Shown: positions 9,853 through 41,887 of the stretch, piece by piece
Numbering within the stretch: the stretch's first letter is position 1
How the letters are laid out: the number at the start of each line of letters is the position of its first letter
Origin: Chloroflexota bacterium
GTDB taxonomy: Bacteria > Chloroflexota > Anaerolineae > Anaerolineales > UBA4823
Assembly: GCA_029265355.1 (NCBI GenBank)
Contig: JAJUJL010000014.1
Span: forward strand, 1 to 64,000
Reading direction: 5' to 3'
DNA length: 64,000 nucleotides
Made by a program: the position numbers and the translations under genes
The notes under the pieces: generated by a model
What the model was told of the DNA's origin: nothing
Seen by the model: the letters and a program-made list of their open reading frames with translations, nothing else
Databases searched by the model: none

Positions 9853-10278
9853 TCAGAGTTGCTCATCTGAGGTCAAATGATATTGTACCTCTTGGTAGTT
9901 GCCTGCTGAAATCCTGTAGGCGCGGCATTTCCAGCGCCCATCCTCCGGATACCAGATCAGGTAGGCAACTTCCGGATAAAAGGCTTCCGCCAGGTCAGTG
10001 GCTGAGGGATGGGGCGGGCCGCCGGGGTGAGAATGAAAGATGCCTGCCAGTGTGTAACCGCGTTCATCGATCCAATTCAGAGCTGCCAGTTGGGCGTACG
10101 GCTCCATCCGGAAGCGCACCGGGCTGTGCAGCATATTTTCCACCGGCAGCACAGCTTCGACCAGGATTTCGTTTCCGGTCGGCGTGCCGGCGAGCAAGCC
10201 GCAGGCTTCCTCGGGAGCGCACTGCTGCACCTGCGCCTGCATCTCGCCAAACAGGGTCGTGGGAATAGTGAGGCGCAT
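9853..10278 (-). CDS. JAMM/MPN-domain metallopeptidase (Mov34 family)
   Basis: A 141-residue MPN+ domain protein with the full JAMM motif: Glu24 in EEACGLL and HSHPGGPPHPSATD with His82, His84, Ser92 and Asp95. Prokaryotic relatives are Zn peptidases that process ubiquitin-like sulfur-carrier proteins or act in cysteine synthesis (CysM-associated Mec+). No ThiS/MoaD-like gene is adjacent, so the partner is unknown. It is followed on the same strand by plsY after about 150 bp. Confidence 0.87.
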   Translation of the reverse strand: MRLTIPTTLFGEMQAQVQQCAPEEACGLLAGTPTGNEILVEAVLPVENMLHSPVRFRMEPYAQLAALNWIDERGYTLAGIFHSHPGGPPHPSATDLAEAFYPEVAYLIWYPEDGRWKCRAYRISAGNYQEVQYHLTSDEQL

Positions 10279-10292
10279 CTGGGAAAGTTAGT

Positions 10293-11105
10293 CTAGCCTA
10301 TCCACAGGCTGATGCCAATCACGATGACGAGCACCAGTAGCGGCTCGATGATTGCCTGCTGCCAGGGTTCGCCTTCCGCCAGGTTGGCGAGCAGAGTGGT
10401 CAAACCATACGCTGGGCCGAGCAGGAGCAGCCCGTAGCTGACTGGCGAGAGGGGAAGATAATACAGCCCGGCAGCGAACTGGGTTGCAAGCAGCGCCACC
10501 AGCCCGGATTCGAGCAGCGCCCAGCTCCGGTGCAGGCGCAACCTGAGCGTGCGCAGGCTGGTCAGGAAAGCCGCCAGAGTGAGCGCGGGTACGGTGAAGA
10601 TCAGGCGCGCTCCCGCTGCGCTCAGGCTGGTCGCCAGGATCAGGAACAGAGCGTAAGCCAGGGCGGTCAGCCCGGCAGCAGCGGCTGGCTGACGCACGTC
10701 GTCCGGGTCGATGGCGATGTATTCAGCGACCAGCACCAGCATCAGCAAGCCGCCGCCCAGGGCGAAACCGGCCCACCAGGTGAGGCCAAGAGGCAGTTGG
10801 AAGAGCGGCGCGCCGATCACCCAGGCGGTCAGCGCTGGCAGCAACCAATGCCCTATGATACCGTGCCTGGCTGCTGCAGGATGCTGGCGCAGCAACCACT
10901 CCACGCCAGCGGCGGTCATCGCCGCCACCAACAGCCCGGCCGCGGTGCGCACATTCAAATCCCAGGCCAGGTACAGCCCGGGGAGCTGCACCTCGATAGT
11001 GCGCGAGGGCAGCTTCAGAAAACGCGCCAGGGCGTAAGCCAGCAGTATCAGCGCCGAGAGAATGCTCAGGCGGTCGAGATCGGGCAAATGGCGGCTGCGG
11101 TCCAT
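10293..11105 (-). CDS. polytopic membrane protein of unknown function
   Basis: A 270-residue protein with about 8 hydrophobic segments, for example LSILSALILLAYALARFL, LAWDLNVRTAAGLLVAAM and PLLVLVIVIGISLWIG at the C-terminus. I do not recognise a catalytic motif. It resembles small hypothetical membrane proteins common in Chloroflexota (possibly DUF5656, uncertain). The start at 11105 avoids overlap with the divergent glycosyltransferase promoter. It ends 15 bp before the JAMM gene start, so the two probably form an operon. Confidence 0.6.
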   Translation of the reverse strand: MDRSRHLPDLDRLSILSALILLAYALARFLKLPSRTIEVQLPGLYLAWDLNVRTAAGLLVAAMTAAGVEWLLRQHPAAARHGIIGHWLLPALTAWVIGAPLFQLPLGLTWWAGFALGGGLLMLVLVAEYIAIDPDDVRQPAAAAGLTALAYALFLILATSLSAAGARLIFTVPALTLAAFLTSLRTLRLRLHRSWALLESGLVALLATQFAAGLYYLPLSPVSYGLLLLGPAYGLTTLLANLAEGEPWQQAIIEPLLVLVIVIGISLWIG

Positions 11106-11169
11106 GAGGAAATGATAACATTCCAGCCATGGGTCAGGTAGGGTAAAATTAAATTCTGAGGTGACAACC

Positions 11170-12372
11170 ATGCGTATCGGAATGATGGTGGATGTCTACA
11201 AACCGCACGTCAGCGGCATCACCAATTACATTTCCCTGAACAAGAAATTTCTCGAGCAGCTTGGCCATGAGGTATTCGTCTTCACCTTCGGCAACGAGGA
11301 TTATGCCGACGATGAAACCCATATCATTCGCTCGCCGGGCATGCCGCTGCTCAACACCGGTTACTATGTCAGCCTGAATTACTCCCGCCAGGCGCGCTCG
11401 CTGATTCGCACCATGGATGTGGTGCACGTGCACCATCCTTTTCTGAGCGGCTCGCTGGCGCTGCGCTATTGCCGCCCGCGTGGCATACCGGTGATTTTCA
11501 CCAACCATACCCGTTACGATCTCTACACCCGCGCTTACCTGCCCGTGCTGCCGGATGTGATTGGCGAGACAGCCATAGAAGCTTACCTGCCGGCATTTTG
11601 CCGCGCTTGCGACCTGGTCATTTCACCATCGCCAGGCATGCGCGATGTGCTGCGCCGCTATGGTGTGGATGTGCACATCGAAGTGGTGCCCAATGGAGTC
11701 GATTTGAAGCCTTTCCGCCAGGCTGAGGCTGGCAATTTGCGCGCCGATCTCGGCTTTTCTCCCGACACGGTTTTGTTGATCTACGTTGGACGCTTGGGTC
11801 CTGAGAAGAATTTGCCTTTCCTGTTGCGTTCATTTGCCGGCGCAGCCCTGGCTTACGAAAATATCGGCTTGTTGTTGGTGGGGGATGGTCCAGAGCGCGA
11901 TAACCTCGAGGATCGCGTCCAGTACATGAAATTGACCGATCGAGTTAAGTTCACCGGCATGATTCCCTACCACACGTTGCCCAACTACATGAGGATTGCA
12001 GACGCCTTTGTCACTGCCTCGGTGACCGAAGTGCACCCGTTAACGGTAATCGAAGCGATGGCAGCCGGGTTACCGGTGCTGGGCATTGATTCGCCGGGGG
12101 TGGGTGATACGATCGAAGACGGCGTCACGGGTTACCTGGCGCCAGAGGAAGACCTGGCAGCGTTCACCGCCAAGATGGTGCGCTTGATCACCGACCACGA
12201 AAACCGCAAACGCATGGCGCAGCAAGCCTGGCAGCAGGTGGAGCGTTATGCCATCGAGAACACGGTGCAGAAGATGTTGGACTTGTACCAGGGGGTGGTG
12301 TACACGACGATCCCCGACCGGCGCACCTGGCGCAGCCGTTTGATGCGTGCGTGGGATAGGTGGGTCAACTGA
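11170..12372 (+). CDS. GT4-family glycosyltransferase
   Basis: A 400-residue GT-B enzyme. It opens MRIGMMVDVYKPHVSG, has HVHHPFLSG in the acceptor domain, PNGVD at the domain junction, the nucleotide-binding VGRLGPEKNL, and the EX7E-type EVHPLTVIEAMAAG. This fits GT4 retaining transferases, especially diacylglycerol glucosyltransferases and phosphatidylinositol mannosyltransferase-like enzymes. The nearby plsY makes a glycolipid role plausible, but that is inference. The start is ATG 11170 with AGGTG upstream; a GTG at 11161 is the alternative. It is followed directly by yraN (stop 12372, start 12373). Confidence 0.88.
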   Translation: MRIGMMVDVYKPHVSGITNYISLNKKFLEQLGHEVFVFTFGNEDYADDETHIIRSPGMPLLNTGYYVSLNYSRQARSLIRTMDVVHVHHPFLSGSLALRYCRPRGIPVIFTNHTRYDLYTRAYLPVLPDVIGETAIEAYLPAFCRACDLVISPSPGMRDVLRRYGVDVHIEVVPNGVDLKPFRQAEAGNLRADLGFSPDTVLLIYVGRLGPEKNLPFLLRSFAGAALAYENIGLLLVGDGPERDNLEDRVQYMKLTDRVKFTGMIPYHTLPNYMRIADAFVTASVTEVHPLTVIEAMAAGLPVLGIDSPGVGDTIEDGVTGYLAPEEDLAAFTAKMVRLITDHENRKRMAQQAWQQVERYAIENTVQKMLDLYQGVVYTTIPDRRTWRSRLMRAWDRWVN

Positions 12373-33139: not shown

Positions 33140-34261
33140 CTACCCGACCACGCGCAACTGGCGCGGCAGGTCGCTGAGCGACTCTGCGCCGCTATCGGTG
33201 ATCAGCACATTGTCTTCGATGCGCACCCCATTGCGGTCGGGCAGGTAAATGCCCGGCTCCACGGTGAAGGTCATGCCGGGCGCCAGCGGAAGCTGGTTAT
33301 CGGCGCGGATATAGGGCTCCTCATGGCTTTCCATGCCCAGCCCGTGACCGGTGCGGTGGGTGAAATACTTGCCGTAGCCGCTGTGCTCGATCACTTGGCG
33401 AGCAGCGTGATCGATGCTGCTGGCGAGCACCGCTGGCCCAGCAGCGCGCCTTCCGGCGGCGTTGGCTTCCAGGACGATGGCGGCGATGCGCTCCATTTCT
33501 GGGTCAACTTTGCCGACGGCGAAGGTGCGGGTGAGATCGGAGAAATAGCCGTTATAGGCCGCGCCCCAATCGATCACCAGCAGATCGCCCTCCTGCAGGC
33601 GGCGCTCGGTGGGCGTGGCGTGGGGGTTAGCGCTGTTGGGGCCGGCGGCGACGATGGGCGCGAAGGGCAAAGTGGGGTCGGAGCCGCGGCGCAGCACCTG
33701 CAAGGTCAGTTCAGAAGCGATCTCGCGCTCGCTGGCGCCGATCTTGATCGCCGGCAGCGTGGCTTCCAGGGCTTCCTGGGCGATCTGGACGGCTTTGCGC
33801 ATATATTCGATCTCGCTGGCGTCCTTGCGCACGCGCAGGTCGGCCACAACGCTGGCCGCCGCCTGGAAAGTGCAGCCCGGGGCAGCCGCAACCAGCAGCT
33901 CATACTCCAGCATGCGCATGGCGCGCGGTTCGTAGCCCACGCGGCGCCCGGAATGCAGGTCGGCTGCCAGGCAGGCTTGCTGGAAAACCGCCTGCCAGGT
34001 GGCTGGATCCTCGCCGTAAGTAAAAACCTGCGCTGCGAAGGGCAGGTGGCGGGCTTTGGCGGCTTCCAACTCAGGGACTACCAGCACCGGCGGCATGTGC
34101 GGCACGAACAGCGCCAGCACCGGACGCTCGCTGAGGTGGAATTGCAACCCGGTCAGGTAGGTCAGGCTTTGTCCCGGATTGAGCGCCAGGGCGTGCAAGC
34201 CCGAGGTTTGCATGCCAAGCGCCAGGCGTGACATGCGCAGCGAGAAATTTGTGTCGGACAT
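33140..34261 (-). CDS. M24-family Xaa-Pro aminopeptidase-like protein
   Basis: A 373-residue 'pita-bread' metallopeptidase. The N-terminal creatinase-like domain is followed by the catalytic domain, with metal ligands in VIDWGAAYNGYFSDLTRTF (two Asp), HRTGHGLGMESHEEP (His), FTVEPGIYLP (Glu) and GVRIEDNVLIT (Glu). The full ligand set suggests an active Xaa-Pro dipeptidase or aminopeptidase. It heads a four-gene operon whose 5' region adjoins the left end of the mobile island. Confidence 0.92.
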   Translation of the reverse strand: MSDTNFSLRMSRLALGMQTSGLHALALNPGQSLTYLTGLQFHLSERPVLALFVPHMPPVLVVPELEAAKARHLPFAAQVFTYGEDPATWQAVFQQACLAADLHSGRRVGYEPRAMRMLEYELLVAAAPGCTFQAAASVVADLRVRKDASEIEYMRKAVQIAQEALEATLPAIKIGASEREIASELTLQVLRRGSDPTLPFAPIVAAGPNSANPHATPTERRLQEGDLLVIDWGAAYNGYFSDLTRTFAVGKVDPEMERIAAIVLEANAAGRRAAGPAVLASSIDHAARQVIEHSGYGKYFTHRTGHGLGMESHEEPYIRADNQLPLAPGMTFTVEPGIYLPDRNGVRIEDNVLITDSGAESLSDLPRQLRVVG

Positions 34262-34378
34262 GATCTCGTTCTCCTATGAACTGGTTTGGCGAACCCCGCC
34301 GGTCTGCCTGATTATAGCGAAATATCCCGCTGCGCGCCAATTGAACCCTGCCGCGCGGACTGGAAGGGGTAAGGCTGT

Positions 34379-34399
34379 CTTCGGATCAGACGGTTGTGG
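34379..34399 (+). other. putative attL (21-bp direct repeat)
   Basis: The 21-bp sequence starting CTTCGGATCAGACGG is repeated exactly at 40778-40798 in the same orientation. It flanks the integrase-bearing segment, and the integrase gene ends 55 bp inside. Its sequence resembles the anticodon loop to T-arm part of a tRNA-Arg(TCG) gene, but no intact tRNA surrounds it. Confidence 0.75.
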
Positions 34400-34453
34400 G
34401 TGCGGCATTCATGCCGACGAATCTCGCCGGGGGCGCCATATCTGGCGGTGATC

Positions 34454-35719
34454 TCACCGCTTCACCCCCACATCTGGGGGCTTCGCCTGCTCTTCGAGCG
34501 GGCTTTCGTTTTTCGGGTGCAATTGGGTGCAAATCGCCCTCACCCCTACCCCCGGCCCCTTCCCCTCTCCCAACGCTGGGAGAGGGGAAGGGGTGAGGGC
34601 TATCGGTGTCACCAAATCATCCATCAACTGCGCCGCCTCGTCCTGCATCTCGTTGTACAGGTGACCGTAGATGTCCATGGTGATGCTGGGCTTGGAGTGC
34701 CCCAGAATCTTGGAGACAACGATCACCGGGATGCCGTGGTTGAGCATCAGCGATGCCGCCGTGTGGCGCAGATCGTGAAAGCGGATCTTCGGCAAACCAG
34801 CCTGCCCCAGCACACGGGAGAAGTCCAGTCGCAGATTGCTCGGGTCCAGCGGCGTGCCGCTCTTTGATGGAAAGATCAGGTCAAATTCCACCCAGCGCTC
34901 CCCGGCTGCTACCCGTTCTCCCTGTTGCCGCTCCAAATGCTCCCGCAAAGCCTGCAAAGCGCCCTCGCCCAGCTTGATCGTGCGCCGTCCGGAGCGCGTC
35001 TTCGGCTCCACGAAGCTCCAGCCGTGACCGGGCACATATTGCACCTGGCGGCGCACGGTTATCCTGCCACTCACCCAATGCAAGTCCGACCAGCGCAAGC
35101 CGAACAGCTCGTCCATGCGCATCCCGGTGGTGACTGCCAGGTGGTAGAGCGCCTCGTGGCGCGAGCCTTTGGCTGCCACCAGGAGCTGCGAGACCTGGGT
35201 CTCGTCCAGCACCATCATCTCAGCGTGCTTGTACTGGGGCAAAGCTGCCCCATCGGTCGGGTTGCGCAGGATCAAGCCATAGCGCACCGCTTTTTCCAGT
35301 GAGCGGTGCAGCACCGCGTGCACGATGCGCACCGTGCGCACACCGCTGCCGGACTTCAGCAGCGAGGCGTATAAGCGCTCGACGCGCTCCAGGCGCAGGT
35401 CTTTCAGGCGGGTATTTCCAATGTGGGGGAGGAGATGCTTCTCAACTGTCCGACGATATTGGTCATGGGTTTTCAAACGTAGTGAAGCCCGGTTATTTTC
35501 CAACCACACCTGGAGATACTCCCCCACCATCATCTTGCCGCCCGCATAGTTCAAGCCCTGCCCGGCCTGGTCGAGCATCTTGCGCAGCCAGGCCTGGCAC
35601 TCGGCTTTGCTGTCCGCCGTGAAACTGGCGCGGCTGCCCTCGATGCACACCTGGGCGCGCCGGCGCCCGTTGGGACGCTGGTACAGCGTGCCCTCGTTCT
35701 TACCTCGTCGTTTCGCCAT
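34454..35719 (-). CDS. site-specific tyrosine recombinase (phage-type integrase)
   Basis: A 421-residue integrase. An N-terminal arm-binding domain (GTLYQRPNGRRRAQV) and a SAM-like core-binding domain precede the catalytic domain. The active-site set is Arg201 (TTGMRMDELFGLRW), His315/Arg318 (FHDLRHTAAS), His341 (LGHSKPS) and Tyr351 (MDIYGH). The C-terminal 50 or so residues are encoded by a palindromic repeat (TPSPLPALGEGKGPGVGVR) and look like an added tail. The host boundary attL lies 55 bp past its stop. It should catalyse integration and excision of the island. Confidence 0.93.
   Translation of the reverse strand: MAKRRGKNEGTLYQRPNGRRRAQVCIEGSRASFTADSKAECQAWLRKMLDQAGQGLNYAGGKMMVGEYLQVWLENNRASLRLKTHDQYRRTVEKHLLPHIGNTRLKDLRLERVERLYASLLKSGSGVRTVRIVHAVLHRSLEKAVRYGLILRNPTDGAALPQYKHAEMMVLDETQVSQLLVAAKGSRHEALYHLAVTTGMRMDELFGLRWSDLHWVSGRITVRRQVQYVPGHGWSFVEPKTRSGRRTIKLGEGALQALREHLERQQGERVAAGERWVEFDLIFPSKSGTPLDPSNLRLDFSRVLGQAGLPKIRFHDLRHTAASLMLNHGIPVIVVSKILGHSKPSITMDIYGHLYNEMQDEAAQLMDDLVTPIALTPSPLPALGEGKGPGVGVRAICTQLHPKNESPLEEQAKPPDVGVKR
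34540..34602. repeat. CCCTCACCCC-type palindrome inside the integrase gene
   Basis: The segment CCCTCACCCC..CTCTCCCAACGCTGGGAGAG..GGGGTGAGGGC is a long inverted repeat of an intergenic type. It overlaps the integrase 3' end and encodes its unusual Pro/Gly-rich tail. Confidence 0.6.
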
Positions 35720-35882
35720 GTGATTTCCTTCCTTTCCAGGAAGCGGCGAACCGACGAGTCCAATCCAGATTTTCCTGTTCAGTTGTTAAGGTGCTCTGTC
35801 CTAGGCGCATTGTAACACCGAACCATTAAGATAGCAAATCTGTTCTAGTAAATAGCGTCCACCGGTTAGGTAATTTTGGCGA
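35720..35882. other. intergenic between integrase and excisionase
   Basis: No gene is visible. A GGAAGGAAATC ribosome site for the integrase lies next to its ATG at 35719. The interval turns AT-rich towards the excisionase. Confidence 0.5.
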
Positions 35883-36110
35883 TCATCGCTCAGGCCATGT
35901 TCGGTTTGAGTATCCGAAATCCCGACGGTTGTGGTCGATGTACGCCAGCAAGTCTTCCTTGCGCACGCGCACCGCATTGCCGATCCTCACAGTGGGGATC
36001 TCGCCCTGGCGCATCAATTGGTAGGCGAATGCCCGGCTGATATTGAGCAGGCGCGCCACGTCGTTGCCCTTCAGCAGGCAGATCTCGGTTGTGACATCCT
36101 GGTTTGGCAT
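35883..36110 (-). CDS. excisionase-like helix-turn-helix protein
   Basis: A 75-residue MerR/Xis-type winged HTH. The core reads LLKGNDVARLLNISRAFAYQLMRQGEIPTVRIGNAVRVRKEDLLAYID, the usual excisionase/helix_turn_helix_17 pattern. AAGGAG lies 6 nt before the ATG at 36110. It sits directly upstream of the integrase in the same direction. Its mRNA leader holds two tandem terminator-like hairpins, so its expression may be attenuated. Confidence 0.85.
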   Translation of the reverse strand: MPNQDVTTEICLLKGNDVARLLNISRAFAYQLMRQGEIPTVRIGNAVRVRKEDLLAYIDHNRRDFGYSNRTWPER

Positions 36111-36133
36111 AGCATCTCCTTCCTGGTCATTAA

Positions 36134-36187
36134 GCAAAACGGCCGGCGATCCCATTCCTGTGGGAAATCGCCGGCCGACGTATAAAG
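36134..36187 (-). terminator. leader hairpin 2 upstream of the excisionase
   Basis: On the minus strand GGCCGGCGAT pairs with ATCGCCGGCC around an inner CCCA/TGGG stem, followed by GTTTTGC. Together with its upstream flank CTTTATACGTC it is a near-copy of the element at 36257-36312. Confidence 0.65.
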
Positions 36188-36256
36188 ACAGATGCTGATT
36201 ATTCAGATGACGATAATACTCTATTCGGTTAGATGGGAATGGTCTTCACACCTCCT

Positions 36257-36312
36257 AAAAAAACAAACGCCGGAGAACTCACCCAGTGGGAGTATCCGGC
36301 CAACGTATAAGT
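36257..36312 (-). terminator. leader hairpin 1 upstream of the excisionase
   Basis: On the minus strand CTTATACGTTGGCCGG starts a stem that closes with CCGGCG and is followed by GTTTGTTTTTTT, a strong intrinsic terminator. It is duplicated at 36134-36187. Confidence 0.75.
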
Positions 36313-36334
36313 CACAGATTATTACCTTGGTGAC

Positions 36335-36362
36335 ATTATACCGAAACCATTATGAATATCAA
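36335..36362 (-). promoter_or_regulatory. promoter of the excisionase leader
   Basis: TTGATA (36357-36362) and TATAAT (36335-36340) on the minus strand are separated by 16 bp. The predicted start near 36328 gives a leader of about 220 nt containing both hairpins. Confidence 0.7.
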
Positions 36363-36391
36363 GCGCGAATATCCCGAAATATAGCCAAGTC

Positions 36392-36431
36392 GTACTGTGA
36401 GTCGGTGTTCAATTTGCCGTACTTTGAGTAC
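36392..36431 (+). promoter_or_regulatory. C-box-like operator of the XRE controller
   Basis: Two similar boxes, GTACTGTGAGTC (36392-36403) and GTACTTTGAGTAC (36419-36431), have centres 27 bp apart. The second is a palindrome with a 3-nt centre. They end 10 nt before the XRE start, as expected for an autoregulating restriction controller. Confidence 0.6.
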
Positions 36432-36441
36432 GATTCAACGG

Positions 36442-36684
36442 ATGAAATCACCGAAGGTTAACCTTGCGATTAATTTTGGTAAACGGCTTGTTGAACTGCG
36501 TATGCAGAAAGGTATGACGCAAGAGCGCCTAGCAGAAGCTGCAAATCTATCTGCGGATTTTATCAGCCTTATGGAGAGGGGTATTCGTGCTCCCTCTTTT
36601 GTTACCCTTGAACGCTTGTCTAAAGCATTGGGGGTACCTGTTAATGAATTCTTTGTTTTTAATTCAAAGCCAGATGTTGAATAA
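36442..36684 (+). CDS. XRE-family regulator, probable R-M controller protein
   Basis: An 80-residue single-domain HTH protein. The core is FGKRLVELRMQKGMTQERLAEAANLSADFISLMERGIRAPSFVTLERLSKALG, typical of C proteins that time restriction gene expression. It is 108 bp upstream of the candidate endonuclease in the same direction, and the paired boxes at 36392-36431 lie just before it. The base composition is AT-rich. Start ATG 36442; the ribosome site is weak, as is common for leader-poor C genes. Confidence 0.83.
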   Translation: MKSPKVNLAINFGKRLVELRMQKGMTQERLAEAANLSADFISLMERGIRAPSFVTLERLSKALGVPVNEFFVFNSKPDVE

Positions 36685-36792
36685 TTTGCCATAACAAGTA
36701 CACCTACACTTTCGGGGCCAAAATAGCCTAACATCAATAAGGGTTAACCTACAAAATAAAAAATCAGCATTTCTACATAAAGGGATTCGTTA

Positions 36793-37845
36793 ATGTACCA
36801 TAGCTACGATAATGAACAAAATTATGTTAAACGAATTGCAGATCGTGGTCTATCAATTTACGATCCAATAGATCCAGGTGATCCGGATTACTGGATCCCA
36901 ACACCAGAACTTGAAAGATTACTCAACGAGGGCTTGATTGGATTATCATTGAAGGACCTTCCACTTCGAACCCGATCGAAAGTGGTAAAGCAAGCTGTCT
37001 GCAGAGTACTTGGATATCCATTACCAACATCCTTCAGAAAAACTAAACCACGATTTCCGGGGCAATCATTCGATACATATGTCCAGAAATCTAATAACCT
37101 CCAAATATGGAATGAGGATATCGCACCATCAAGGAGATATGTGATCATCCGATTGAATGCATCTGATGTTATAGAGAAGGTCAAGATAGTCACTGGTGAG
37201 ATGCTCGCTCAATTAGACACTACGGGAACATTAACACAAAAATACCAAGCTCGAATAATTCCAGGGCTGGAGTCGCACGAATTGATAGCCCCATTAGATA
37301 CTGATAATTTATTGCCTATTATCAGTAGAGATTACAAAGTTATGCTTACTGGCATTGATCCGAGCTCACCACCGTCATCCAACGGATTATTACCAATACA
37401 GACGATTTTTGATCTATTAAAGCCATTGTTAGGGCAGACCTTAGTTGATATCGGGCGTGACCAGGATCGTAACAGGGGAGCAGAGCTCCATCGTCGTATT
37501 TGTGAAATTTTGGGATATGGAAATTATCACGATACGGGTCAATTTCCTGATATAAGAAACCAGTTATTAGAAGTTAAACTTCAAACTTCACCCACAATAG
37601 ACCTTGGTCTTGTACTACCAACCAGTATTGAACCCCTTGATTTACCAAGAATTTCTCATATCCAGATACGTCATTGTGACATTAGATATGTTATTTTTTA
37701 TGCTGAAACAGATGGCTCGATTGTAAAATTAACACATCTATACCTCACAACCGGTGAGGCATTTTTTACTAGGTTTTCACAATTCCAAGGTAAAGTTATT
37801 AATCGGAAATTGCAAATACCATTACCGCGAAATTTTTTCGATTGA
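36793..37845 (+). CDS. candidate type II restriction endonuclease
   Basis: A 350-residue protein that I cannot place in a named restriction family. The C-terminal half holds a plausible PD-(D/E)XK site: FPDIRNQLLEVKLQTS with Asp253, Glu260 and Lys262, preceded by the helix GAELHRRICEILGYG. It lies between an XRE controller and a convergent DNA methyltransferase, overlapping the latter by 24 bp, which is the main reason for the call. GC content is low. The recognition site is unknown. An alternative is a non-restriction nuclease acting with the methyltransferase. Confidence 0.7.
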   Translation: MYHSYDNEQNYVKRIADRGLSIYDPIDPGDPDYWIPTPELERLLNEGLIGLSLKDLPLRTRSKVVKQAVCRVLGYPLPTSFRKTKPRFPGQSFDTYVQKSNNLQIWNEDIAPSRRYVIIRLNASDVIEKVKIVTGEMLAQLDTTGTLTQKYQARIIPGLESHELIAPLDTDNLLPIISRDYKVMLTGIDPSSPPSSNGLLPIQTIFDLLKPLLGQTLVDIGRDQDRNRGAELHRRICEILGYGNYHDTGQFPDIRNQLLEVKLQTSPTIDLGLVLPTSIEPLDLPRISHIQIRHCDIRYVIFYAETDGSIVKLTHLYLTTGEAFFTRFSQFQGKVINRKLQIPLPRNFFD

Positions 37846-39549
37846 GAGGCCAAATGCATTCCAAATAAGGCGGTCTAATTCTATTTCCAATTCGTTTGCA
37901 ATTGGGTTTGGGATCAAATTATAAATTTGCTTGGTAACTTCGATAATTTTTTGAGAGCTGGATAGTTTTGGATCGGGAATCGGAAACTTTTCTACATATT
38001 GCGTCATGAAACGCCTTCTTCCAGAGTAAAGCTTATTGTTGAACCTAAAATCATAGAATGATTCAATAAAAGACGAATTTGCTACCGCTAATGCCAGCCA
38101 TAATGATTCATCATTCTCAGGTTTTTCTGAAATAAGCCAGTAACAATCCCCATTTACAATTGCACCACTTAAGTCCATCCAAAATGTAGGTGTACTAGAA
38201 ATGTCTCGAAAAACTATTTTGGGTTTTGCCCACAATGCAGGCTCTTGTGGAACCCATATTTCAAACCAATGTCGTCCAGAGGAAACAAGGTAATCCCGTT
38301 TCTCCAAAATAGACCGATACCGATTTAGATATTTTGCTGTTTTCGGATAGTCCTGCAAATTTATTACAACTCGACTTCCACCCTGATTGAGATGTGTATA
38401 TAGAATTTGATAGTTTCTGTCTACCTCTAAAGCCCTATATTTGCGCGCGATATGGTGAGTAATTAATGGTTTTAAAACCTCCGGCCTTTCATTTTCTGGG
38501 ATTTCTTCCCAGTCTGATCGAATAAATATCTTATCTGCTGTTGTTTTTACACCTACTCGTATCTTTCCAATATCACCGAACGTACAAAACGTAAATTTTT
38601 CAACTTTATCGAGCCATGCCTCGGAGGATTCGTTTGACAATCTCCATAAACCATCTGCTGTTTGATCTATTGCTAATTCCCCATGCTTTACCACAAAAAA
38701 ACTACCATCTGAGGTTTTTATTACTCCATCGAACTTAAGTGCATCAATACAATTCTGACTCTGAAAGGTGAATTTATCACTATCTGTTCTGTAAATTGAT
38801 GTAAACTTCGGAGAACCATTGTTATTATCTCCTTTTTTCCTCTCCAATAATAATACTGCTGGCAATACCGCAGCTTCGAACAATTGTGTATCACCGAAAT
38901 CCCAAACATGAATTACATTAAATTCTTTATTGATTCCATTTCTAACACTTTCTCCCCCTTTGGTTGTCATAAATCTATTTGACACAATAATACCGACAAT
39001 ACCCCCAGGGCACATTACTTTAGAAATTGCAATTATAAAAGCATGATATAAGTCAACCCTTCCAGAAAGATTGAATTGACGAGAAAGTATCTTGGACTCT
39101 TTTGCTCCCATTACTTGGGTTCTAACGTAAGGAGGGTTTGCAATAACTACATCATATTGATTTCCAGGATGGTTGAAAAGACCCAGATAGGTATAACTTA
39201 GAGCCACTTGTAAGAAATCTTCATTTTTCAATTGAACCTGAATACTTGGAAAATGCCCTTCTATTCGCTCCTTTGCATATTGAATGGCATGTGGATCAGT
39301 ATCATATCCAAATATTTGCAGATTTTTGAATCCATGATCGGTAAGCATTTTTACGATAGAAATTAATAATTCACCATCACCAACTGCTGGATCCAGCACT
39401 CGGATTACGTTACTCTTCGTTCGAGACGAAAGATAATTTACGATTTGAGCTGCAACAAAATCTGATAACAAAGTTGGAGTGTAATGGGCGCCAATATTTT
39501 TTCGCTCTTCTAATGCTGCATAACCTTTGGGTACATCATGAATTGCCAT
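37822..39549 (-). CDS. N6-adenine DNA methyltransferase (gamma class, type II)
   Basis: A 575-residue methyltransferase. It starts with GAHYTPTLLSDFVA, has SAM motif I in VLDPAVGDGELLISIV and the catalytic NPPY at 138-141, the order of gamma-class (M.TaqI/Eco57I-like) enzymes. The region after about residue 330 is a target-recognition domain of TaqI-C type. It should protect host DNA at the site cut by the convergent endonuclease. It begins 67 bp after the AbiEi-like gene in the same direction with no promoter seen between, so the two are probably co-transcribed. Confidence 0.9.
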   Translation of the reverse strand: MAIHDVPKGYAALEERKNIGAHYTPTLLSDFVAAQIVNYLSSRTKSNVIRVLDPAVGDGELLISIVKMLTDHGFKNLQIFGYDTDPHAIQYAKERIEGHFPSIQVQLKNEDFLQVALSYTYLGLFNHPGNQYDVVIANPPYVRTQVMGAKESKILSRQFNLSGRVDLYHAFIIAISKVMCPGGIVGIIVSNRFMTTKGGESVRNGINKEFNVIHVWDFGDTQLFEAAVLPAVLLLERKKGDNNNGSPKFTSIYRTDSDKFTFQSQNCIDALKFDGVIKTSDGSFFVVKHGELAIDQTADGLWRLSNESSEAWLDKVEKFTFCTFGDIGKIRVGVKTTADKIFIRSDWEEIPENERPEVLKPLITHHIARKYRALEVDRNYQILYTHLNQGGSRVVINLQDYPKTAKYLNRYRSILEKRDYLVSSGRHWFEIWVPQEPALWAKPKIVFRDISSTPTFWMDLSGAIVNGDCYWLISEKPENDESLWLALAVANSSFIESFYDFRFNNKLYSGRRRFMTQYVEKFPIPDPKLSSSQKIIEVTKQIYNLIPNPIANELEIELDRLIWNAFGLSIEKISR

Positions 39550-39616
39550 TGCGTTCCCTCATTGATCATCTGATTTATTTTCAAACAAGATGCATCTTTG
39601 TAAAGATGTACCTATC

Positions 39617-40225
39617 CTACGCGAGAAGCATCTCTAAATATGGACGTACAACATTCTCAACCCTATTAAGGTTAGCAAAAAATAACAAGGCATCAATATC
39701 GAGGTGTTTGTGCTCTACGTAATCTCGCAATGCCTCTAAGGCCACATCCAAACCAATTTTGTTTCGAAACTTGAAACAATCTGCGATAGTTTTCTCAATC
39801 CCATATATTCTTACTAATATTCCATCAAGCTCATGTTCCTCAATGCTAGCCGAATAGCTTTTCTGAGAAAGCCAGAATATTCTGATAGGTGGATATTCAA
39901 TCCTCGGTTTCTCTGAATTTATTGGAAGGGCGATATAAACATGTTGAGGAATCTGAGTGGTCAATCCATGAAAAGATAAAGCTGATATTAGGCAAATCAC
40001 TCCTTTGGGGATTCTCAAAGCAACTTGAACCAGGTCAAAATACGCACCGGGCTCGGTATCTGCAAGCCGGTATAGACCTCGGCTTTCACGCACGATTGCA
40101 CCCGTTTCACGCATCTGGTAGAGTGTGCGCGGTGCGATCCCCTCATCGATTGCCTGTTGCGTGCGAAGCAAGCCACTGTGGTTGCGGAATGTCTCGATGG
40201 CCTTAGTGTAGGCATTTTCGCTCAT
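39617..40225 (-). CDS. AbiEi-family antitoxin/transcriptional regulator
   Basis: A 202-residue protein with an N-terminal winged HTH (GLLRTQQAIDEGIAPRTLYQM, then ESRGLYRLAD) and a C-terminal AbiEi_4-type domain (EHELDGILVRIYGIEKTIADCFKFRNKIGLDVALEALRDYV). In AbiE type IV systems AbiEi binds inverted repeats before its own gene and antagonises the nucleotidyltransferase AbiEii. No AbiEii follows; the next gene is the methyltransferase. An inverted repeat overlaps its promoter, so autoregulation is plausible. Confidence 0.87.
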   Translation of the reverse strand: MSENAYTKAIETFRNHSGLLRTQQAIDEGIAPRTLYQMRETGAIVRESRGLYRLADTEPGAYFDLVQVALRIPKGVICLISALSFHGLTTQIPQHVYIALPINSEKPRIEYPPIRIFWLSQKSYSASIEEHELDGILVRIYGIEKTIADCFKFRNKIGLDVALEALRDYVEHKHLDIDALLFFANLNRVENVVRPYLEMLLA

Positions 40226-40243
40226 ATCAGCACCCGAATAAAA

Positions 40244-40302
40244 TTAACTGTAATTCCTAATATCTACAGTTAATATTATACATCACTATTCGCGTTTTTC
40301 AA
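40244..40302 (-). promoter_or_regulatory. promoter and inverted-repeat operator of the AbiEi gene
   Basis: On the minus strand TTGAAA (40297-40302) and TATAAT (40275-40280) are spaced by 16 bp. Directly downstream TTAACTGTA (40244-40252) and its inverted copy (40265-40273) form a 9-bp-arm repeat with a 12-bp spacer, the expected place for AbiEi binding. Confidence 0.7.
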
Positions 40303-40379
40303 CAAGCAATTTCCGCGACACTTGCCAGGATTATCGCAAGCTGTCGCCTGCTTCGCTAGGGCTATGATTACACCAATGG

Positions 40380-40660
40380 TGCATACCCCCCTTAAGCCGT
40401 TACCCCGGTTTGCACCAGGTGCAAACCCCTTCACACCAGGGGGTATGAACCAGGCAATCAGGGTTTGCACCAGGGGATCACACCAGCCACAAGGGGGGAA
40501 TACACCAGCATGGAGCGCCTTCTTTTGCTCGTTTCTGGATTGGACTCGCCGGTCACCGCATCCAAATTCATGTAGATTCAGATTCTTCACTCGCCCTGAG
40601 CCTAAGAAGGGCTCGTTCAGAATGACATCGTTTCGGGTGCAATTGGGGTGCAATTCGCAC
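40380..40660. promoter_or_regulatory. GGTGCAA-type repeats, possible integrase arm sites
   Basis: TTTGCACC/GGTGCAAA motifs occur near 40404, 40414 and 40459, and a pair GGGTGCAATTGGGGTGCAA near 40637-40655. The same pair, spaced by one base less, lies near 34519-34537 by the left end. Between them a GTCATTCTGAACGA-type dispersed repeat is visible in reverse at about 40575-40630. No gene is supported in 40226-41227. Confidence 0.45.
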
Positions 40661-40777
40661 AGACACATCATACAAAACACACAAAATGGACTCTCACCAC
40701 CCCCAGATATGCTCCCCAATGCACCTTGCCTCCCCCACCTGTACGGGATGGGCCGTCCAGACTCGCTCCCAGCACGC

Positions 40778-40798
40778 CTTCGGATCAGACGGTTGTGG
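40778..40798 (+). other. putative attR (21-bp direct repeat)
   Basis: An exact copy of 34379-34399 in direct orientation. The flanking bases differ on both sides, so the identity is limited to the 21-bp core. Confidence 0.75.
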
Positions 40799-40855
40799 AG
40801 CAGATTTCTAGCCTGTGAAGGTGGATTTACCTGTCCAGCGAAGCCGCCCGTAGTG

Positions 40856-40967
40856 CTAAGTAAACCGCCGAAAGTTTTTAGAGTAAATCGGCCATCACGT
40901 TGGCGGTTTACTCCAGGGTTTCGCCGGTGCTTGTCAGATTTTTGTAAAAACACTTCCGGCGAAACAC
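40856..40967 (-). repeat. 112-bp two-hairpin dispersed repeat, copy B
   Basis: The reverse complement matches 17372-17483 over its full length, with the same two hairpins. It lies 57 bp outside the island's right end. Confidence 0.75.
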
Positions 40968-41227
40968 CTGGTCTGAATGGCGGAGGGGGGCGGGTCAAGC
41001 ATTAGCCGGGGGCAGTTTGATCTTGTCTCGATGGGTTGTGGCTAATGCTTGACCCCTACAAAGCATGGCTCGATTGGCGAGGGTTTCCTGGGTGATGACT
41101 CTCAGTGACAACTTGCCTGCGCATAAATCGCTGCCCTCGGCGCGGAGAAATTTGCGTAAACCTGCCAGGAATATGTTAAAATAATGACAATTCTTATCAG
41201 GTATTGCGTTCCAGATGCGAGAACGAA

Positions 41228-41887
41228 ATGACCCCTTTTAATTTGGCTCTTTTTCCCCTCAATACGGTGCTCTTTCCAGGTATGCCGCTGCAATTGCACA
41301 TCTTCGAAGAGCGCTACAAGCAGATGATCAACCGCTGCATTCAGCAAGGGCAGCCTTTTGGCGTAGTGCTGATCCGCAAAGGGGTGGAAGCGCATGGCCC
41401 GCTGGCAGAGCCGTATGCCATCGGCACCATGGCGCGCATTTCGCAAGTGCAGAAGCTCTCCCAGGGGCGCATGAATATCCTGAGCGTGGGCGCCGAGCGC
41501 TTTCGGGTGGTGGAGTTCGATTACAACAGCCGGCCTTACCTGGTCGGCTCCGTTGAGCTGTTCCCTCTCCAGGATCAGGAGCGAGTGTTGCAGCCGGCCG
41601 GCGCGCAACTGCGCATGCTGCTCAAGGAATACCTGGAGAACCTGGCGCGGCTCAGCGACATCGTCTTCGACGCCGGCCAGATACCGTCGAGTCCGGTGGA
41701 GCTGAGCTACCTGGCAGCGATTGCGCTGCAAATCCCGGAGAGCAACAAACAGGAGATCCTGGAAGTAGCCAGCGCGCCCGAGTTGGTCGAATTTCTCCTG
41801 GCGAGGCTGCGCCGCGAGCTGGCGTTGCTGGCGGTTTTGGCGGAGAAGCGCAAGAAGAACGCCATCGGCAGCTTCAGCGCCAATTGA
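41228..41887 (+). CDS. LON substrate-binding domain protein
   Basis: A 219-residue stand-alone LON_substr_bdg domain (PUA-like): FNLALFPLNTVLFPGMPLQLHIFEERYKQMI at the N-terminus, then GTMARISQVQKLSQGRMNILSVGAERFRV. There is no ATPase or protease domain, so it is not Lon itself; such proteins are thought to bind substrates or partners, but their role is not established. Start ATG 41228 is chosen for homology; the ribosome site is weak. It is followed by the DUF427 gene after 10 bp. Confidence 0.9.
   Translation: MTPFNLALFPLNTVLFPGMPLQLHIFEERYKQMINRCIQQGQPFGVVLIRKGVEAHGPLAEPYAIGTMARISQVQKLSQGRMNILSVGAERFRVVEFDYNSRPYLVGSVELFPLQDQERVLQPAGAQLRMLLKEYLENLARLSDIVFDAGQIPSSPVELSYLAAIALQIPESNKQEILEVASAPELVEFLLARLRRELALLAVLAEKRKKNAIGSFSAN

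Follow-up and report, generated by a model that had tools for sequence, protein, structure and literature searches.

A probable tRNA-Arg-derived integrative element with a restriction-modification cargo and an orphan AbiEi in a Chloroflexota genome

The first 64,000 nucleotides of contig JAJUJL010000014.1 (assembly GCA_029265355.1, a Chloroflexota bacterium of the order Anaerolineales), hereafter the window, contain an integrative island of 6,399 bp (34379-40777, plus a second copy of its core), which we read, with considerable confidence, as a tRNA-derived integrative element with swappable cargo that sits ectopically at this locus and carries a controller (C) protein-regulated restriction-modification (R-M) system together with a self-repressing orphan AbiEi. 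The sequence-only reading, which had preceded this analysis, proposed a small integrative element with 21-bp repeats as its ends, and this proposal is now supported by a sister element with the same ends, residing in a tRNA-Arg gene of another genome of the order (G587), and by relatives in which the two genes flanking the island, encoding an M24 peptidase and a LON substrate-binding-domain protein, adjoin each other without it. Islands of this kind are familiar, the orphan antitoxin and the ectopic site being the unusual features.

Ends of the island and its closest relatives

The exact 21-bp direct repeat, previously proposed as the island boundary, is indeed present as the left (attL; 34379-34399, forward strand) and the right (attR; 40778-40798, forward strand, preceded by the conserved P-arm end CCCAGCACGC) attachment-site cores, and is beyond chance: among 200 first-order Markov resamples of the 8.5 kb around the repeat, none contained a repeated 21-mer or 17-mer, and 4 contained a repeated 15-mer. 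With up to three mismatches allowed, the 21-mer is found at four places in the whole 5.05-Mb genome (reversed control: 0), two of these being exact, one (on contig C58) having one mismatch and one (on C63) having two, the latter lying inside a tRNA-Arg(TCG) gene identified by ARAGORN; so small a number of places, one of them the tRNA-Arg gene, rules out a dispersed host repeat. The start of the 21-mer coincides exactly with the tRNA-Arg(TCG) anticodon loop, CTTCGGA, and the repeat, judging by its sequence, corresponds to the anticodon-loop/3′-half core of this tRNA gene. As the repeat begins at the anticodon loop, which is a known crossover subsite of tRNA-targeted islands according to passages of PMC4383910, the integrase of the island most likely acts on a core formed by this loop.

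A fragment of the target tDNA, as expected of an attP, is carried by the element: the 21-mer and the bases following it match the tRNA-Arg 3′ half (P′ arm; 34379-34440, forward strand), with an interruption of ~15 bp (about 34402-34417) apparent in the alignment with G587, and ARAGORN found no tRNA gene at either end of the island, the 34379-34440 segment included. At attR of the window the tRNA identity spans only 21 nt, while a longer 3′ half is present at the far end of the G587 element. The near-copy on C58 (L066, 9886-9906) is a solitary tRNA-Arg 3′-half-like fragment, possibly a scar, with neither an element nor an ARAGORN gene, and its end, CCTGCCGCGCGG, recurs at 34347-34358 of the window, just left of attL. 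As for the base composition, the interior had been described as much more AT-rich than the host, which stands for the cargo (36.2-40.2 kb, GC 0.39) and does not for int-xis, whose GC of 0.60 is host-like (flanks: 0.62 and 0.58).

A search of 251 genomes of the order with the tyrosine recombinase of the island (Int) returned a 93% identical protein in G587, and the best AbiEi match other than that of the window (68%) was located on the same contig, 4.5 kb away; the excisionase-like Xis of this sister is about 90% identical, and the subterminal DNA is the same. No Int closer than that of G587 was seen in a later 400-genome sample, where the next best reached 61-63%. The DNA homology between the two elements covers 34418-34544, 34601-36341 and 39719-40798 of the window, at an identity of 87.6% for the int-xis region and 73.7% for AbiEi and the P arm up to the core end. 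An intact tRNA-Arg(TCG) gene lies beside int in G587, and the tRNA 3′ half is repeated at the far side of the element, beside the same P-arm end, the two cores being 6,932 bp apart. The G587 cargo between xis and AbiEi differs from that of the window, consisting of a DUF5343 protein (PADLOC PDC-M34A), a HEAT-repeat protein, an N6_N4 methyltransferase and a protein weakly resembling DUF4145 (21.7 bits, under Pfam’s 23.1 cut-off).

Exact matches to the P-arm/core junction, CAGCACGCCTTCGRATCAG, are confined to three places among the 400 genomes of the order, namely in the window, in G587 and on contig 32 of the host (C32), whereas with up to two mismatches the junction matches in 31 of the 400 (reversed control: 3 of 400). 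The C32 copy (L245, about 9947-11228) is a decayed relic that retains sequence from both end regions, namely the C-terminal 74 aa of Int (62%), arm-site sequence and the P arm, and encodes a DUF433/DUF5615 pair, with no left core and no AbiEi match; the large gene adjoining it probably encodes an isoleucyl-tRNA synthetase. Since the window, G587 and C32 copies carry three different cargoes, they represent a single int-xis chassis with an exchangeable cargo slot between xis and the P arm.

Integration genes and the insertion site

Int (34454-35719, reverse strand, 421 aa; Phage_integrase, 2e-32) does possess the full catalytic set that had been noticed from the sequence (R201, H315, R318, H341 and Y351), and the excisionase gene likewise predicted inside the island, xis (35883-36155, reverse strand), was verified by an HTH_17/excise match; their dN/dS values are 0.13 and 0.15, respectively. 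The 3′ end of int contains a GC-rich hairpin (34541-34608) that is present in the C32 relic and absent from the G587 sister. Clustered GGTGCA/TGCACC arm-type repeats mark the P arm (40368-40777), which is preserved in G587 and, to some extent, in the relic: nine copies fall within the 719 subterminal nt, four within 5,659 nt of the interior and 51 within 57,580 nt outside (Poisson p about 3e-8 for the subterminal clustering of a motif that was picked after inspection), and these blocks may well serve as the arm sites of Int. A 20-bp sequence just upstream of int (35750-35769) recurs inverted in the P arm (40534-40553, 95%) and could be a candidate binding site shared by Int and Xis. In line with the earlier description of a compact element devoid of conjugation genes, no relaxase or conjugation genes were found among the six island proteins scanned (smaller ORFs were not scanned and an oriT was not sought), and neither were phage-packaging or capsid-interference genes among their named PHROG matches (cos/pac sites were not sought), which comprise integrase, excisionase, regulators, DNA-binding proteins, methyltransferase and one restriction endonuclease family.

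Relatives of Int are mostly found next to tRNA genes. There were 60 matches in 38 of the 251 genomes (window included), and in 22 of the 30 loci examined a tRNA gene lies no more than 200 nt from where the Int match ends (nine Lys, six Arg(TCG), two Asn and one each of Ala, Val, Thr, Met and Leu); the other eight comprise one with a tRNA-Arg(TCT) at 491 nt, two with a tRNA ~1 kb away, one with none and four with a tRNA-Arg 3′ half only (the window, G003, G551 and G041), among which G003 and G551 may represent either additional ectopic copies or tandem-element junctions. Two more loci, from the 400-genome sample, adjoin a tRNA (Arg(TCG) in G676 and Lys in G719), and no tRNA was found at three viral-contig loci. 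At L199 (G534:C24), the genes for a distant AbiEi (27%) and for a relative of the same integrase lie ~1 kb apart and may form a further Int-AbiEi element.

The island lies between the M24 peptidase gene (33140-34261, reverse strand) and the LON substrate-binding-domain gene (41204-41887, forward strand). Eight of the 22 other genomes sampled from the same family had a strong LON-domain match (E <=1e-40), and in all eight the two genes are divergent neighbors with no island in between, their tblastn matches being spaced by 139-216 nt in seven cases and by 1.3 kb, with a 425-aa ORF, in one; in seven genomes of other families with a strong LON match, M24 was on other contigs among the matches listed. 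The gap in the window is 6,942 nt, or 543 nt without the island, 117 nt of which (40855-40971) belong to a dispersed repeat of the right flank. This repeat of ~117 bp resembles a miniature inverted-repeat transposable element and recurs at least 40 times elsewhere in the genome, at 86-100% identity and with one of the matches partial, which is a lower bound, as 40 of the 94 candidates were scored; between it and the LON gene, an inverted repeat with perfect 16-bp arms, GGGTCAAGCATTAGCC, and a 32-nt loop is found at 40992-41055. The host tRNA-Arg(TCG) gene is intact elsewhere in the genome, as predicted by ARAGORN, and the window copy, having no tRNA gene and a broken 3′ half, is therefore an ectopic insertion outside a tRNA gene, secondary-site integration of islands being already known from parts of PMC2297512.

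Restriction-modification cargo and the orphan AbiEi

The complete R-M system claimed by the sequence-only reading was borne out by profile matches and PADLOC for all three genes, with the start of the first one revised. The gene for C, an XRE controller protein of 80 aa with an XRE match (36442-36684, forward strand), more probably starts at the ATG at 36442 than at 36397, and just upstream of it lie two putative C-box-like half-palindromes, GTACTGTGAGTC and GTACTTTGAGTAC (36391-36433, forward strand). R (36793-37845, forward strand; PADLOC REase_II, 2.4e-134) is a type II restriction endonuclease, whose PD-(D/E)XK-type motif, P252-D253...E260-x-K262, is invariant in 63 of 63 aligned homologues, and M (37822-39549, reverse strand; PADLOC MTase_II, 2.7e-201) is an N6-adenine methyltransferase, the closest solved relative of which, M.BseCI, aligns with it over residues 14-569 (455 bits). 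M.BseCI recognizes ATCGAT according to a portion of PMC5502580, and the window system probably has the same specificity.

Relatives of R number 65 in the genome collection, five in plasmids and one in viral contigs, and in 66 of these 71 loci M is convergent behind R, while being upstream and divergent in four and meeting the contig end in one (within the 66, the M match is weak, 25-27%, at L105 and L112, and the L112 M belongs to a second R copy). Relatives of the window Int, Xis or AbiEi were found at none of the 71 loci (E <=1e-3; many of the contigs are short), which rules out AbiEi plus R-M as a widespread linked unit: the C-R-M cassette is widespread without them. The gene order int-xis-C-R-M-AbiEi, suggested earlier as something to look for in other genomes, is in its complete form nowhere else in the sequences searched, while the sister shares int, xis and AbiEi. 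No R homologues were seen in 60 other relatives of the host or in 399 other genomes sampled from the phylum, and a homologue with 60% identity is encoded by Aneurinibacillus aneurinilyticus (L101), whose BanIII presumably cuts ATCGAT, although no supporting paper was found in the open-licence literature searched. R-M genes on integrative elements as such are already known, as passages of PMC4176335 illustrate.

The AbiEi-type protein reported from the sequence is confirmed as well (39617-40225, reverse strand; AbiEi_4, 5.4e-11; PADLOC AbiEi, 1.1e-74), its gene lying in the same orientation as M and 67 nt ahead of it. A survey of AbiEi homologues comprised 59 loci, from which the window and G587 were set aside and seven were dropped (L192, L196, L260 and L278 for want of downstream room, L198 for having no tblastn match, L279 and L280 as 24-aa matches); AbiEii sequence is found next to AbiEi in 43 of the 50 scorable ones, made up of 20 of the 25 from genomes and 23 of the 25 from viral contigs, where the toxins of L177, L179, L181, L183, L190, L200 and L255 are partial or split, L261-L267 are near-duplicates, and three AbiEii examples were confirmed as PF08843. 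No AbiEii is encoded behind the AbiEi gene in either the window or G587, and the only AbiEii match in the host genome at the curated cut-off spans 49 positions (22.1 bits; 22.5 with frame neighbors); the window AbiEi is an orphan antitoxin, not half of an AbiE pair.

Upstream of AbiEi, an inverted repeat, TTAACTGTA-N12-TACAGTTAA (40244-40273), is conserved in G587 and represents a candidate autoregulatory operator; its TTAAC...GTTAA arms are also found in the two nearest AbiE pairs (L174 and L175) and not in most others. AbiEi proteins repress their own operons through promoter inverted repeats, as described in parts of PMC3985639 and PMC7319586, and, because AbiEi precedes M by 67 nt on the same strand, we infer that its regulation might extend to M too. 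A recombinant origin of AbiEi from two halves, considered due to a GC step, was ruled out, there being no step in the identity to G587. Elsewhere, L210 (G576:C181, 4590-6872) encodes two neighboring AbiEi proteins, one with only a 31-aa AbiEii-like remnant and the other, on the opposite strand, paired with AbiEii. A limited search of the open-licence literature found no mention of an orphan or solitary AbiEi associated with R-M or an integrative element.

Proposed mechanism, alternatives and known systems

Our proposal would thus run as follows: Int would recombine the tRNA-Arg(TCG) anticodon-loop core over a 7-bp overlap, CTTCGGA, flanked by GGTGCA-type arm sites, with Xis directing excision; the usual home would be the tRNA-Arg(TCG) gene, restored upon integration by the 3′ half carried beside int, and the window copy, its tRNA 3′ half broken, would have landed in the M24/LON intergenic region. 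The stretch between xis and the P arm would act as a cargo slot, presently filled with a C-controlled type II R-M system that would defend the host and stabilize the element, while AbiEi, having lost its toxin or never had one, would most likely still be a self-limiting repressor of its own promoter and, hence, of the AbiEi-M transcript.

Several observations weigh against this proposal. Relatives had been suggested as a source of an empty site with one 21-mer, and while M24 and LON do adjoin without the island in other genera, none of the eight gaps carries the 21-mer, the best candidates having 6-11 mismatches; no circular form and no same-species empty site were seen either, the relatives compared being of other genera. 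On the right-hand B′ side the match to the tRNA core continues for 14 nt past the 7-bp overlap, more than a simple insertion into a random secondary site accounts for; our best guess is that the extra identity at attR derives from a pre-existing tRNA-3′-half scar, as on C58. ATCGAT is not clearly depleted (20 observed versus 30 expected in the window, 1 versus 2.1 in the island), and the P-arm patterns had 0 matches in viral contigs. Finally, the synonymous sites of AbiEi are saturated between the window and G587 whereas the dS of Int is 0.28, so AbiEi did not travel with int throughout, and may be part of what is exchanged and not of the chassis.

That the 21-bp repeats are unrelated tRNA-like scars, with the R-M genes having arrived by homologous recombination or transposition, seems highly improbable to us: a solitary tRNA 3′-half-like fragment does exist elsewhere in the genome (on C58) and none of the 71 other R loci has a relative of the window Int, but a sister that resides in a tRNA gene and whose ends are built alike largely refutes this view, and the relic keeps sequence from both end regions. 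Other alternatives concern AbiEi. It might act, independently of the R-M genes, as an anti-addiction antitoxin against AbiEii of competing elements or resident AbiE systems, a role that we find possible albeit doubtful; its C-terminal domain is conserved between the window and G587 at least as well as the N-terminal one (0.69 vs. 0.64), this domain alone gives antitoxicity in the Streptococcus agalactiae AbiEi (an excerpt of PMC3985639), and AbiEi-AbiEii pairs are common in related genomes and viral contigs alike (some of the survey loci being near-duplicates). The domain is, however, needed for repression too, so that its being conserved is compatible with either role, and the 49-position match is all that the host offers as a resident AbiEii.

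AbiEi could also be a functionless leftover of an AbiE cargo, the toxin having been overwritten by the R-M genes, and the different cargoes that take the place of the toxin in the two chassis copies, as well as the G576 AbiEi with nothing but a 31-aa toxin-like remnant behind it (E 0.002), agree with that; we nevertheless deem it unlikely, as the ORF is full-length, combines saturated synonymous with low non-synonymous change (dN 0.23), and is accompanied by an operator-like repeat conserved in both elements. A bolder and quite improbable extension would have AbiEi as a switch captured by the chassis without a toxin, which would act through its own operator on the transcription of the neighboring methylase gene, and so tune methylation as each new R-M or defence cargo establishes, while also disarming rival AbiE; if true, the ectopic copies would indicate that dispersed tRNA 3′-half scars offer such elements a way out of tRNA genes. 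Under the reading that we prefer, that of a tRNA-derived element with swappable cargo, the island defines, with exact ends, a small family composed of the window copy, one complete sister and one relic. It also provides a vehicle for an R-M cassette that is widespread, makes available a natural orphan AbiEi that allows the antitoxin and regulator roles to be separated, and illustrates how an element of this type can reside away from its tRNA target.

The island has several known counterparts. With BseCI/ClaI-type type II R-M systems that include a C protein it shares the nearly end-to-end similarity of M to M.BseCI (455 bits) and the R plus convergent M arrangement of 66 out of 71 homologous loci, and it differs in sitting in an integrative element with AbiEi, the ATCGAT specificity being predicted. 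The AbiEi family and the promoter inverted repeat are those of the AbiE type IV toxin-antitoxin systems (parts of PMC3985639 and PMC7319586), unlike which no AbiEii toxin is present and R-M or methylase-containing cargo follows AbiEi instead. SGI1, as portrayed in passages of PMC2297512, is likewise an integrative island that has been found away from its normal target, at a secondary site between genes, although it targets thdF and is conjugatively mobilizable, whereas the sister of the window element uses a tRNA gene. The tRNA-gene-targeted islands of the Islander type (sections of PMC4383910) have in common with it a tyrosine integrase, an attP with a tDNA 3′ fragment and a probable anticodon-loop crossover (site type A), and a displaced fragment marks the far end of the G587 sister, which also has the intact target tDNA at one end; the window copy lacks the latter, lies outside a tRNA gene with its tRNA fragment broken and is small at 6.4 kb. 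Lastly, tycheposons, described as 4-200 kb in extracts of PMC10872708, share with the element their tRNA border, tyrosine recombinase and variable cargo.

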